Shown in pieces: positions 1 to 4,847 of a stretch of DNA of 35,856 bases. Every line of letters begins with the position of its first letter. The stretch's first letter is position 1. Origin of the DNA: Nitrospirota bacterium (lineage in GTDB: Bacteria > Nitrospirota > Thermodesulfovibrionia > Thermodesulfovibrionales > JdFR-88); the NCBI GenBank assembly GCA_021789935.1, contig JAJYIR010000025.1, positions 1 to 35,856 of the forward strand, written 5' to 3'. The notes under the pieces were generated by a model. The model was given only the letters and a program-made list of their open reading frames with translations. It was not told where the DNA came from and ran no database searches. The position numbers and the translations under genes are program-made.

Positions 1-247
1 TCACGAGTTTAAACTCGGAATTCGTTGCCACCTGGAACCCTACGGAGCGTCTTCAGTTTTACGGCGAAATCTTCGCCAGACAAAGACCGGATCCGGGCAG
101 GGAGCAGGCTATAACTTCGATGGAGGCCTCCAGTATATGGTTACGCACTTCTGGTGGGAGGCGGATCTTGAAGAAGGCGTGCGCCTCTCAGGCAACCTTG
201 GCGGCTTTACCCATTACTACGGGGTAGGTTCAGGGTTTCTGTTTTAG
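1..247 (+). pseudogene. 3' end of outer-membrane barrel protein, frameshifted
   Basis: This is the last ~80 codons of a gene whose start lies outside the window. Its translation matches the C-terminus of the intact barrel protein at 27805-28683 almost residue for residue: ATW-P-ERLQFYGE, then QTKT, GAGY-FDGG, EEG-RLSG-LGGFTHY, ending G-GFLF. The match needs two frames. Positions 3 to about 73 read in one frame; from about 74 to the TAG at 245-247 the next frame is needed. One missing G near position 75 (TTCGCC where the paralogue has a GGC codon) explains it. The terminal phenylalanine and alternating residues fit an outer-membrane beta-barrel of the PF13557-like transporter type. Either a true pseudogene or a one-base sequence error at the contig edge. 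Confidence 0.75.
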
Positions 248-274
248 AGCGGAGACAGCAAACGGAAGAATGAA

Positions 275-304
275 TTGCCTTTTATGGTTGACATATTTTA
301 TACT
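275..304 (+). promoter_or_regulatory. Possible promoter of the NRAMP operon
   Basis: TTGCCT (275-280), an 18-nt spacer and TATACT (299-304) resemble a sigma-70 promoter. Transcription would start near 311, giving a leader of about 310 nt before the transporter gene. A perfect 6-bp palindrome, CTCAAT-AA-ATTGAG (317-330), lies just downstream and could be an operator or an mRNA 5' hairpin. A TTGACA at 288-293 has no good -10 at normal spacing. Confidence 0.4.
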
Positions 305-339
305 TTTTTTGCGATCCTCAATAAATTGAGAATTCAAGG

Positions 340-423
340 AGGTGTCAATGGACGGCGGCCCAAGTAGTCATTGTAGTCACGGCAATAAACTGACGGGACG
401 GACGGCGTTTCCATTGAGCACCT
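340..423 (+). promoter_or_regulatory. Leader RNA helix hiding a Shine-Dalgarno and start codon
   Basis: AGGTG (340-344) can pair with CACCT (419-423) and CAATGG (346-351) with CCATTG (411-416), giving an 11-bp stem broken only by a 1x2 internal loop. The left arm contains most of the Shine-Dalgarno and the ATG at 348-350, so the fold would block translation of the small ORF starting there. The loop contains two GACGGCG copies (351-357, 401-407). It does not match the M-box or yybP-ykoY consensus as I know them. Function as a metal or translation switch is an inference from position ahead of a metal transporter. Confidence 0.4.
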
Positions 424-513
424 TATCCTAAAAGCTTCTCTGGAAATCCCCCGCTCATTACGCTTTTCGTCATAGCCCCTCTTCTGGGCATCCCGGCCGG
501 TTTTTTGCTGTAA
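348..513 (+). CDS. Small membrane protein split over two reading frames
   Basis: An ATG at 348 follows a near-perfect Shine-Dalgarno (AAGGAGGTG, 336-344) and opens a 27-codon ORF with a polar stretch containing His-Cys-Ser-His, ending TAA at 429-431. The +1 frame, open from 418, continues without a start codon to TAA at 511-513 and encodes KSFSGNPP followed by a clear transmembrane helix (LITLFVIAPLLGIPAGFLL). Joined by a +1 shift near 415-431 (TCC TAA A) the product would be about 54 aa: cytoplasmic polar head plus one membrane helix. I do not recognise a family. It could be a programmed frameshift, a decayed gene, a one-base sequence error, or a leader peptide plus chance helix. Position directly ahead of the NRAMP-type gene suggests a role with it, as with other small regulators of metal transport, but this is inference. 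Confidence 0.4.
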
Positions 514-623
514 CCCTTTTTACTAGTTGGCGACGAACCGGGTCCATTGGCTCCCCGAAATTTAAAAAATTTTATAAAGGCACACAGAGTTCCTGATAAA
601 TTTTTAGCAGGAAGGGGGATACG

Positions 624-1892
624 ATGAATTTTTTTGCCAGGCTGTATTATCAATATCGCAAAATTATCAAGGCGATCGGCCTTTTTTTCATCATTTCAGG
701 GCCGGGCATCATAGTTATGATCGCCGATAATGACGCGGGTGGTATCACCACGTATGCGGCAACTGGCGCCAAGTACAGCTATAACCTGATATGGGTGATA
801 TTGATCCTTATACCAGTTTGCTATTACGTCCAGGAGATGACGGTACGGCTGGGCGCTGTGACCAAGCGTGGACATGCCGAGGCCATTTTTGAGGGGTTCG
901 GTTCTTTTTGGGGATGGTTTTCGCTTACCGATCTGATGGTCGTAAACTGGCTGACCATGGTGACCGAATTTATCGGTATGGCGGCAGCCCTCAAAATTTT
1001 TGGCATTTCTCCATACATCACCGTAATTGGTATTTGTGTGGTCATGGGCATTATGGTCCTGAACGGCAGTTACTGGACATGGGAAAAGATAACGCTCCTT
1101 TTTTGCGCGATGAACCTGATCTATATTCCTGGCGCTTTTATGGTGCATCCGTCAATAAAGGACATCGTGAGCCAGGGAGTGGTTCCAAATTTGCCTGGCG
1201 GTTTGAATAACGATCTTTTCTTTTTCCTTATGGCCAACATTGGAACTACCATAGCCCCTTGGATGCTCTTTTTCCAGCAAAGCTCGGTGGTCGACAAGTC
1301 CCTTAAGGAGAAGGATATCCCCTGGGGCAAGGTAGACACCTATGTGGGTTCTTTCCTTACCGGGCTGGTGGCCATATTCATAATTATCGTGACCGGCACC
1401 GTACTTAAAGGGGTCAATATAGAAGATGCCGCTCAGGCGTCCGTATATCTGATGAAGATCAATAAATATATCGGCACCTTCATGGCCATCGGGCTTTTCG
1501 ATGCCGGTTTTCTGGGCGCTATCTGTATCTCTTTGGCAAGCTCCTGGGCATTTGGAGAAGTATTCGGCTGGGCACATTCGCTCAATTACAAGATAAAAGA
1601 GGCTCCCTGGTTCTATGGACTCTATTTCTTATTGATGATAACCTCGGGGATTGTGGTGCTTATCCCGAATGCCCCGCTGGTCCTGATAACACTATTTGTG
1701 CAGGTCGTGGCGGTAACCCTGCTTCCCGCCGCGCTGGTTTTTTTGATACTGCTTTTGAATAACAAAAAGACAATGGGCGAGTACACTAACACAAAATCGC
1801 AGAATATCATCAATGTGGCGATCGTAGTGGCCATTATTATAATATCCAGCATATACGGCGTGAGCACGCTGTTTCCAAATGTGCTCAAGTAA
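624..1892 (+). CDS. NRAMP-related divalent metal (possibly Mg2+) transporter
   Basis: A 422-aa inner-membrane protein with about 11 hydrophobic segments and the NRAMP fold signature GPG in TM1. A purine-rich site (GGAAGGGGG) precedes the ATG. Classical Mn/Fe NRAMPs bind metal with DPGN in TM1 and MPH in TM6. Here TM1 reads D37-A-G-G40 and TM6 reads A211-P-W213, so the Asn and the sulfur ligand Met are replaced by Gly and Ala. From memory, loss of the Met and Asn is typical of the NRAMP-related Mg2+ transporters (NRMT), so Mg2+ or a broad divalent substrate is more likely than Mn/Fe selectivity. It heads an operon with a 58-aa membrane protein and a MgtE-like sensor, which also points to magnesium. 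Family assignment is firm; substrate is inferred. Confidence 0.88.
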   Translation: MNFFARLYYQYRKIIKAIGLFFIISGPGIIVMIADNDAGGITTYAATGAKYSYNLIWVILILIPVCYYVQEMTVRLGAVTKRGHAEAIFEGFGSFWGWFSLTDLMVVNWLTMVTEFIGMAAALKIFGISPYITVIGICVVMGIMVLNGSYWTWEKITLLFCAMNLIYIPGAFMVHPSIKDIVSQGVVPNLPGGLNNDLFFFLMANIGTTIAPWMLFFQQSSVVDKSLKEKDIPWGKVDTYVGSFLTGLVAIFIIIVTGTVLKGVNIEDAAQASVYLMKINKYIGTFMAIGLFDAGFLGAICISLASSWAFGEVFGWAHSLNYKIKEAPWFYGLYFLLMITSGIVVLIPNAPLVLITLFVQVVAVTLLPAALVFLILLLNNKKTMGEYTNTKSQNIINVAIVVAIIIISSIYGVSTLFPNVLK

Positions 1893-1906
1893 AAGAGGCG
1901 GGCAAG

Positions 1907-2083
1907 ATGATAAAAAATTTCTTCAAACATAATTACGCAAAGATACGTGAAATAAACAAAAAATACGCTCATCCTAATGTGGAGATATCCAAAGGGATAA
2001 AATTTTCGCTGCTGACCCTCAGGCTTTACCTGATCTTTTTGGTGCTCCTGCTGCTTTATAAATTCATAACCCTTGTGCGATAA
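1907..2083 (+). CDS. 58-aa single-helix membrane protein
   Basis: ATG at 1907 lies 15 nt after the transporter stop, with a purine-rich GAGGCGGG just upstream; the TAA at 2081-2083 is 25 nt before the next gene. The product has a basic N-terminal half (IREINKKYAHP) and one C-terminal transmembrane helix (LLTLRLYLIFLVLLLLYKF). It lies tightly between an NRAMP-type transporter and a MgtE_N/CBS protein, so a small accessory subunit or regulator of the carrier is plausible. I do not recognise a named family. Confidence 0.72.
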   Translation: MIKNFFKHNYAKIREINKKYAHPNVEISKGIKFSLLTLRLYLIFLVLLLLYKFITLVR

Positions 2084-2108
2084 CGAGGTTACAGGAGGTG
2101 ATAACGTC

Positions 2109-3386
2109 ATGAACATTTTGAACGAAAAAAATCACGAATTGGCCGAGTCTGTTTATTTCCTTAGCGATATGATCGGCACAAAAATATTCTACAACGAAAA
2201 AAAGATCGGAAAGTTGCGCGATATAGCCATAAGAGAGCATGAAAAACTTCCAACGGTCACCCACCTATATGTCAGCCGTCCGTTCGGCCATAAGCCGCTG
2301 ATGATACCATGGGGAAATGTGACCGATATCAGCCCGTGCGGCATCGTGGTCGACCTGCCGGCCCTGGAACAGTTTGAAGGCGAACCGGCGGAATCCCAGG
2401 TGCTGCTTAATGACCATATTCTGGACAAGAAAGTCCTCGATATGGATGACAACGAGGTGGATGTGGTCTATGACGTGAAGCTGGTGCTGCGGGGCAAAGT
2501 CCTTTACGTTACCGATGTGGATTTCAGCCGGTATGCACTTTTTAAAAGGCTTGGCCTGAAACCTATAATGAAATTGCTGTTTAGCGGCACCAATCTGCTT
2601 AAAAAAGAGACGCTCTCCTGGTCCTATGTCCAGCCGCTTCCTGAGGACATCGGCAGGTTCAGGGGGGCTGTAAAACTGAGGATACTTAAAGACAAGCTGT
2701 CGGATATCCATCCTATGGACCTGGCTGATATCCTTGAGGAGCTGAATGAGGAGCAGCGGTTGGCCATATTCAACGAGCTGGAGACCGAGCATGCGTCCGA
2801 CACCCTGGAGGAGATAGAACCCAGAGTCCAGAGGACACTGATATCCTCCATCAAGAAAGAAAGGGCCGCCGAGCTGATCAATGACATGACCCCGGCCCAG
2901 GCTGCCGATATCCTTTCCATACTGCCAGCGCAGGAGGCGGATGAGATACTTGCTTTATTGGAGAAAGAGAATGCGGAAAAGATCCATCACATGCTTGACA
3001 AGCAGGAAGAGAAAATTATCAATTTATCTACCTCGCACTTCATCAAACTCTCTCCCGACATGAAGGTTAGCGAGGTGCTTTCCCAATTTCGCGATCTGGC
3101 AAAAGACAAGGACGAGATCGCCTATATTTATGCGGTCGATGAAAAAGGCACATTGATGGGAGTTCTGGATCTGAAAGAGGTGCTGCAGGCCGAGCTTGAT
3201 GACAAGCTTGCGGACATAATGACAACCAGCGTCATCAGTTTAAAACCCGATAGCACACTTGATGAGGCGGCTGAAACTTTTGCGCGGTACAATTTCCGTT
3301 CGCTCCCGATAGTGGACGAGCGGGAAGTGATACTTGGCATTATTTTGTATCGCGACGTGATGAACCTGAAGCACAGGTTCGTTTAG
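2109..3386 (+). CDS. PRC-barrel / MgtE_N / CBS protein without channel domain
   Basis: A 425-aa soluble protein. The start at 2109 is chosen because AGGAGGTG lies at the right distance; an upstream in-frame start at 2073 would overlap the small membrane gene. Domains in order: PRC-barrel-like (about 12-82), a second PRC-like unit (about 95-155), the helical superhelix of the MgtE N domain (about 190-300, with HPMDLADILEEL and TPAQAADILSIL repeats), and a CBS pair (about 305-425). In MgtE these N and CBS domains sense cytosolic Mg2+ and gate the channel, but no MgtE transmembrane domain follows here. The gene is cotranscribed with the NRAMP-related carrier, so it may sense Mg2+ or nucleotides and control that carrier. 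Domain calls are firm; partner and ligand are inferred. Confidence 0.85.
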   Translation: MNILNEKNHELAESVYFLSDMIGTKIFYNEKKIGKLRDIAIREHEKLPTVTHLYVSRPFGHKPLMIPWGNVTDISPCGIVVDLPALEQFEGEPAESQVLLNDHILDKKVLDMDDNEVDVVYDVKLVLRGKVLYVTDVDFSRYALFKRLGLKPIMKLLFSGTNLLKKETLSWSYVQPLPEDIGRFRGAVKLRILKDKLSDIHPMDLADILEELNEEQRLAIFNELETEHASDTLEEIEPRVQRTLISSIKKERAAELINDMTPAQAADILSILPAQEADEILALLEKENAEKIHHMLDKQEEKIINLSTSHFIKLSPDMKVSEVLSQFRDLAKDKDEIAYIYAVDEKGTLMGVLDLKEVLQAELDDKLADIMTTSVISLKPDSTLDEAAETFARYNFRSLPIVDEREVILGIILYRDVMNLKHRFV

Positions 3387-3411
3387 TGTCCATTTAGAAG
3401 CCTCTTTGCTC

Positions 3412-3440
3412 TTGACGAAAACCGGTACTTATTGGATACT
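3412..3440 (+). promoter_or_regulatory. selA promoter, leaderless geometry
   Basis: TTGACG (3412-3417), 17-nt spacer and GATACT (3435-3440) form a good sigma-70 promoter. The -10 ends 6 nt before the ATG at 3447, so transcription would begin at or next to the A of the start codon. Confidence 0.6.
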
Positions 3441-3446
3441 AACGGA

Positions 3447-4847
3447 ATGGAAACAGCGGACATAAAGACGCGCCTGAAAGGCCTGCCGGGCGTTGATGAG
3501 ACGCTGAAGGGCCCGGAAGGGCGCAAATGGCTCTCTCTCTATCCCAGAAGGTTTGTGCTTAAGGCCATAAGGGAGCACCTTGAGGACCTGAGAAACGGGA
3601 TAAGGAAAGGCGGGTCCCCGGCAACAGACCCAGACTCCATCTCACGCGGCATCGAATGCCTTGTGCTTGGTTATGTGGCCCCCAGTTTGCGGGCGGCTAT
3701 AAACGCAACCGGAGTGGTCCTCCATACAAATTTGGGAAGGGCGCCTCTTTCCGAATCCGCCCTTAATAGTATTTTGGAGATATCAAAGGGGTATTCCAAT
3801 CTCGAATATAATCTGAAAGAGGGGAAAAGGGGCAAAAGATATGCCCACCTCAGTGGATTGATAAAAGAGATCACGGGCGCGCCCGGCGCGACCGTCGTCA
3901 ACAATAACGCTGCCGCCGTTCTGCTTGCGCTCTCCTCCCTTGCAAAGGGGAAAGAGGTTATAGTCTCCCGCGGCGAACTTGTGGAGATAGGCGGTTCCTT
4001 CCGTGTCCCGGATGTGATGGCCCAAAGCGGGGCCGTCCTCCGGGAGGTAGGTACGACGAACAAGACCCACCTGCGGGACTATGAAAGGGCGATATGCGGG
4101 GAGACGGCGCTTATCCTTAAGGTGCACCAGTCAAATTACAGGATTACCGGTTTTACCTCCGATGTCTCCGTGGAGGAGCTTGTTGCCCTTGGAAAAAGGC
4201 ATTCCATCCCCGTGATGTTCGATCTGGGGAGCGGCTGCCTGTTTGATTTGAGAGGGCGCGGCGTGGGGACGGAGCCTGTCGTAAAAGAGGTTGTGGAAAC
4301 CGGCGTGGACCTTGTCACCTTCAGCGGAGACAAACTCCTTGGCGGGCCCCAGGCCGGCATAGCCGCCGGGAAACCGGAGGTGATAGAGAAAATGAACCAA
4401 AACCCCCTGGCCAGGGCGCTCAGGATAGACAAAATGACGCTGGCCGCCCTGCAGGCCACTTTCTTTGCATATGCCGATGAGGAAAGGGCGGCAAAAGAGA
4501 TACCCGCATTGAGGATGCTGCTGGACAGGCCCGAATCCATTCGCGAAAGGGCCGAAAGGCTTGCCTCCGGAATCGGAAAAGGGAAAAACATTTCCGTGGA
4601 CGTTATAGAAGATTCTTCCGAGGCGGGAGGCGGTTCGCTGCCGGGCGTAAGCCTGAGGACTTTTTGTGTTTCCATCCGCCATAATTCGCTTACTCCGAAC
4701 GCTCTGGAAGAGCGCCTGAGGACGGGGGCGCCGCCCGTCATTGCCAGGATAAAGGAAGACGCCCTGCTGCTTGACGCAAGGACCATTTCGGACGATGAGG
4801 TCCCGGTGGTTGCGGAGCGGCTCAATTCTGTTCTGGGCCGCAGATAA
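3447..4847 (+). CDS. selA: L-seryl-tRNA(Sec) selenium transferase
   Basis: A 466-aa PLP enzyme that converts seryl-tRNA(Sec) to selenocysteinyl-tRNA(Sec) using selenophosphate. The central motif TFSGDKLLGGPQAG carries the PLP-binding lysine (K296); INATGVVLHTNLGRAPLS and FDLGSGCL are also typical. Length matches bacterial SelA. ATG 3447 is chosen over an in-frame TTG at 3432 because the promoter -10 lies immediately upstream and the TTG would fall inside the promoter spacer. No selB, selD, tRNA-Sec or obvious selenoprotein gene is in the window, so the rest of the pathway must lie elsewhere. It probably forms its own transcription unit, convergent with the OsmC-like gene. Confidence 0.95.
   Translation: METADIKTRLKGLPGVDETLKGPEGRKWLSLYPRRFVLKAIREHLEDLRNGIRKGGSPATDPDSISRGIECLVLGYVAPSLRAAINATGVVLHTNLGRAPLSESALNSILEISKGYSNLEYNLKEGKRGKRYAHLSGLIKEITGAPGATVVNNNAAAVLLALSSLAKGKEVIVSRGELVEIGGSFRVPDVMAQSGAVLREVGTTNKTHLRDYERAICGETALILKVHQSNYRITGFTSDVSVEELVALGKRHSIPVMFDLGSGCLFDLRGRGVGTEPVVKEVVETGVDLVTFSGDKLLGGPQAGIAAGKPEVIEKMNQNPLARALRIDKMTLAALQATFFAYADEERAAKEIPALRMLLDRPESIRERAERLASGIGKGKNISVDVIEDSSEAGGGSLPGVSLRTFCVSIRHNSLTPNALEERLRTGAPPVIARIKEDALLLDARTISDDEVPVVAERLNSVLGRR

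Follow-up and report, generated by a model that had tools for sequence, protein, structure and literature searches.

In one branch of NRMT carriers a one-helix membrane protein is a more constant partner than the MgtE-like sensor

The window, the whole 35,856-nucleotide stretch of Nitrospirota DNA that was analysed (contig JAJYIR010000025.1), contains three plus-strand genes that are separated by gaps of 14 and 25 bases and preceded by a 377-base leader (positions 247–623, plus strand). The first gene (624–1892, plus strand) encodes an NRMT-type NRAMP carrier of 422 residues (Pfam Nramp, 261 bits), in which DAGG (residues 37–40, helix 1) takes the place of DPGN and APW (residues 211–213, within the TTIAPW of helix 6) that of MPH. 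The second (1907–2083, plus strand) encodes a 58-residue membrane protein with a basic N-terminus, the motif LRxYL and one hydrophobic segment (residues 33–51). Its codons show pN values of 0.11–0.18 against pS values of 0.56–0.86 among relatives; purifying selection is strong and this small ORF is thus a real gene. The third (2109–3386, plus strand) encodes a soluble protein of 425 residues, counted from its ATG, with PRC, MgtE_N and CBS domains. An earlier, sequence-only reading of this DNA had described the carrier, the one-helix protein, the channel-less domain protein and the leader, all of which we recover, and had counted two small membrane proteins, where there is one.

Those near relatives that carry a name in public records belong to the Nitrospirota. 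Directly upstream, window positions 1–246 hold the 3′ end of an outer-membrane-type protein gene that appears frameshifted relative to positions 2632–3549 of the related locus L035. Locus L010 has a different outer-membrane-type gene (367–1278, reverse strand, Phenol_MetA_deg family) at the equivalent place, so a gene of this type recurs before the carrier. On the 3′ side, 45 bases separate the operon from selA (3432–4847), which encodes selenocysteine synthase and has the same orientation.

When the carrier was compared with solved structures, EleNRMT (PDB 7qia) was the best match (E = 4.5e-70), the best canonical NRAMP giving E = 3.4e-19. The DxxG-TxxA motif published as the NRMT signature (PMC8806188) is present in the carrier as DAGG and TTIA (residues 208–211), and a tree grouped the carrier with the NRMTs against a canonical outgroup with support of 100. 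Alignment with EleNRMT places W213 and Q218 at the helix-6b histidine positions, and neither residue can take a proton; EleNRMT has W and N at these positions, which accompanies its absent proton coupling. By these sequence criteria the carrier is an NRMT, a member of the Mg2+ branch of the NRAMP family, and Mg2+ would be its substrate. The carrier resembles EleNRMT in its binding-site motif, in the loss of the proton-pathway histidines and in fold, but EleNRMT lies in another NRMT branch (tree support 86, on a long branch) and was studied alone.

The product of the third gene matched PRC (30 bits, residues 15–84), MgtE_N (80 bits, residues 200–298) and a pair of CBS domains (74 bits, residues 303–424). 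It contained no membrane segment and gave no match to the channel family. A second PRC-like barrel is probable at about residues 99–150, the predicted structure (pLDDT 83, pTM 0.42) having a further barrel-like stretch after the PRC domain. Both the sequence and the predicted fold match the cytosolic domain of MgtE, in which MgtE_N-CBS is a gating module (PMC5529423). The MgtE_N and CBS domains are thus common to this sensor and the MgtE Mg2+ channel. By contrast, the sensor is without the channel domain, has one additional PRC-type domain, or two, at its N-terminus and would act in trans, if at all. At three positions aligned with presumed Mg2+-site residues of MgtE, the sensor has Asp (267 and 416) and Ala (263). 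The sensors examined from the other NRMT branch have Asp at both the 263 and 267 positions, which belong to the site in the MgtE N domain, and window-type sensors keep the second only.

The sensor and carrier genes are tightly linked. Among 198 genomes of the phylum Nitrospirota, with genes taken as adjacent when they share a strand and lie no more than 1 kb apart, a sensor gene adjoins 69 of 76 NRMT genes and an NRMT gene adjoins 69 of 74 sensor genes; the sensor gene lies upstream of the carrier in 63 cases and downstream, as in the window, in six. The pairing from which the sequence-only reading had derived a sensor-controlled Mg2+ carrier is therefore well supported and far from rare. The idea itself was already published: Shin et al. 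(2014) described most NrmT genes as adjoining a homologue of the cytoplasmic domain of MgtE and suggested that it regulates by feedback (PMC4072509), so the earlier reading independently rediscovered their suggestion, and control of the carrier by the sensor is something that we, too, infer. The systems described there, from Clostridium acetobutylicum and Acidobacterium capsulatum, show the same pairing of a Mg2+ carrier with a stand-alone cytoplasmic domain. A one-helix protein, which the window operon has, is not mentioned in the passages of that paper covered here; the A. capsulatum sensor gene is there placed upstream of its carrier, whereas the window sensor gene is downstream, and an M-box stands before some NrmT and MgtE-like members but not before the window operon. 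According to the same authors, the C. acetobutylicum carriers transported Mg2+ without the MgtE-like protein, the A. capsulatum carrier mainly rescued Mn2+ uptake, and adding the MgtE-like protein made Mg2+ rescue no better (PMC4072509).

A different role for the sensor would be that of a Mg2+-dependent regulator elsewhere in the cell that never touches the carrier; like RimM, it would use its PRC domains to bind the ribosome or an RNA. PRC domains do occur in RimM, to which the sensor gives a weak match. Carriers also function without the sensor in the experiments of Shin et al. (PMC4072509). Such a role nevertheless appears unlikely, given that the linkage of sensor and carrier genes is tight in both directions and is kept in two different gene orders, and that MgtE_N-CBS is a gating module in MgtE itself (PMC5529423). 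We favour a sensor that acts on the carrier.

A scan of named genomes by carrier sequence patterns alone yielded 79 loci, which are spread over numerous bacterial phyla and also include archaea; many are metagenome bins, so that individual taxonomic assignments could be incorrect. Of the 79 loci, 78 have the helix protein, as a separate gene in 72 and fused to the carrier C-terminus in six; the sole locus without it is interrupted by a contig end. The sensor, by comparison, is not adjacent in 18 of the helix-bearing loci, comprising 12 with a separate helix gene (one ended by its contig) and all six fusions. Within this NRMT branch the carrier is thus accompanied more constantly by the one-helix protein than by the sensor. 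The sequence-only reading had correctly paired the carrier with a channel-less sensor but missed this more constant companion. Carrier-helix-sensor is the commonest gene order, while a deltaproteobacterial and holophagal group has the order carrier-sensor-helix, its helix protein being 36–40 residues long in most members. All helix-bearing carriers fall in one branch of the tree, which comprises 79 rows (support 97; a quick method was used and some branches are long), apart from EleNRMT and from the Nitrospirota carriers with an upstream sensor.

The motif LRxYL forms the conserved core of the helix family. A profile built from the separate copies and run on 8218 ORFs matched, beyond its seed, only the copy at locus L103 and seven of nine fused carrier C-termini from Nitrospirota and Actinomycetota, the latter with E values of 7.5e-5 to 0.03. 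In the 198 genomes it gave six strong matches, all in this operon type, and weak matches to one fused carrier and to two sequences elsewhere. Searches of the family against Pfam and PDB sequences gave no match, and a search of the open-licence literature turned up no publication that links NRMTs with a small membrane protein. DltX was tried as an identity for the 58-residue protein and rejected (PF12459 scored 18.3 bits against a cut-off of 25, and only one of 37 family members matched at all). The one-helix protein is previously unannotated; that an NRAMP Mg2+ carrier could be controlled by an MgtE-like sensor was a known concept, and the constant one-helix partner is what is added here.

Several observations bear on the transported metal. 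Among the 198 genomes, NRMT occurs in 74 and full-length MgtE in 74, and the two occur together in only 2, where 27.7 were expected (Fisher p = 2.5e-17, which is only a guide as the genomes are related and hence not independent). Nine carriers of the helix branch are preceded by M-box Mg2+ riboswitches, in loci with the sensor (L080, L082 and L087), with the helix protein only (L105, L107, L108 and L112) and with the fused arrangement (L100 and L104). The window's own genome encodes an MgtA-type ATPase and a separate canonical MntH that has DPGN and MPH; neither CorA nor, above the cut-off, a further MgtE_N gene was found in it. Because this MntH is present, the Mn2+ role looks already filled. 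Could the carrier nonetheless chiefly import Mn2+ or another transition metal, with the sensor answering to that metal? The A. capsulatum carrier described by Shin et al. is a precedent for Mn2+ (PMC4072509), and EcoDMT retains Mn2+ transport when its site is mutated to that of NRMT (PMC8806188). Set against the resident MntH, the M-box control of nine branch members and the near-exclusion between NRMT and MgtE, a transition-metal role seems quite improbable, and the operon likely imports Mg2+. The riboswitch-controlled carrier of two Alicyclobacillus loci, L105 and L112, has a second NRAMP-like gene directly upstream, which forms its own long branch in the tree.

A model of the natural fusion at locus L011, predicted from 52 aligned sequences (pLDDT 87.5, pTM 0.88), has NRAMPs, including EleNRMT, as its nearest solved structures. 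In it an extra helix (residues 458–486) is predicted between the last shared helix of the carrier and the small-protein helix (residues 519–549). This extra helix fits the topology, because an 11-helix carrier ends outside and the linker must return to the cytoplasm ahead of a small-protein helix that begins on the inner side. Since the one-helix protein is constant where the sensor is not, it more probably serves as a subunit of the carrier than as an anchor for the sensor; indeed, docking the sensor cannot be its only purpose, as twelve loci with a separate helix gene have no adjacent sensor. Its binding to the carrier and its function there we infer from this distribution and from the fusions. 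An analogy is offered by MAP17, the small single-helix partner of SGLT: in both cases one helix is found beside a LeuT-fold carrier, but no sequence relation is seen.

MgtR and MgtS, small proteins of Mg2+ transport, act as stability or proteolysis tags on other Mg2+ transporters, and the 58-residue protein, with its single helix and basic N-terminus, could be a tag of this sort on the carrier and not a working subunit. We regard this as somewhat unlikely, for the helix has been permanently fused to the carrier C-terminus in two lineages, which points to a permanent position within the complex.

The reading that we prefer, with a probability of roughly 0.62, is a Mg2+ uptake operon in which the NRMT carrier is accompanied by the sensor as a brake in trans and by the helix protein as a carrier subunit. 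The family assignments, the linkage of the genes, the natural fusions and the near-exclusion between NRMT and MgtE are established by the data. Weighing against this reading are the Mn2+ behaviour of the A. capsulatum carrier, the lack of M-boxes among the 198 Nitrospirota genomes and, in the sensor, the Ala at one of the three presumed MgtE site positions. The carrier would admit Mg2+ along the electrochemical gradient of the ion and would not couple this to protons. Should transport be uncoupled, as it is in EleNRMT, the membrane potential drives Mg2+ and uptake needs limiting, which would make the sensor a natural brake. The soluble sensor would read cytoplasmic Mg2+, perhaps also ATP, and slow or lock the carrier when Mg2+ is abundant, acting in trans as the same domains of MgtE act in cis. 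The one-helix protein, inserted with its basic N-terminus in the cytoplasm, would pack on the carrier and stabilise or gate it and, where the sensor exists, may also form part of the sensor's docking surface. NRMT carriers have been assumed to work alone, and we found no tested role for the MgtE-like companion since 2014. If the helix is a subunit, assays of carriers without it may miss their true properties, and the natural fusions provide a ready single-chain construct. The operon would also allow one to test cleanly what keeps an uncoupled Mg2+ carrier from overfilling the cell.

Within the leader, the short ORF MDGGPSSHCSHGNKLTGRTAFPLSTLS (348–431, plus strand) starts with MDGGPSSH behind the ribosome site GGAGGTG, and its start is spanned by the 5′ arm (340–353, plus strand) of a hairpin whose 3′ arm lies at 409–423 (plus strand). 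Other ORFs with an MDxGP start are found ahead of the carrier, or close to it, at loci L006, L010 (twice), L035 and L062, a related MDxGP-type start recurs before relatives in Nitrospirota, and two Alicyclobacillus leaders have an MDSPSSS start. In the hairpin 92% of cells were paired, compared to 32–45% in slid controls; there was no double compensatory change, and the hairpin is thus unproven by covariation although its pairing is far above the controls. The leader pattern was found nowhere beyond this operon in the 198 genomes. No known riboswitch or Rfam family was detected in the window or the operon leader, and the M-box occurs in 0 of the 198 Nitrospirota genomes. The mgtL, corL and mgtQ leaders (PMC11552253, PMC8092293) likewise place, ahead of the gene for a Mg2+ transporter, a hairpin and a short ORF in which Asp and Pro come early. 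This is resemblance only, and by analogy an mgtL-type Mg2+ attenuator is a lead only to what the leader ORF might be. As a more tentative generalisation, which we hold possible but short of probable, a whole NRMT branch may be built around a constant one-helix subunit from an undescribed protein family, which would contribute an additional transmembrane helix either in trans or by fusion, with the sensor as an optional gate of this two-part carrier and a Mg2+-responsive leader ORF replacing the M-box in Nitrospirota. At the related loci L006 and L062 the short ORF follows a promoter-like TTGACA site with near-normal spacing; in the window (281–345), TTGACA and TATACT are only about five bases apart.
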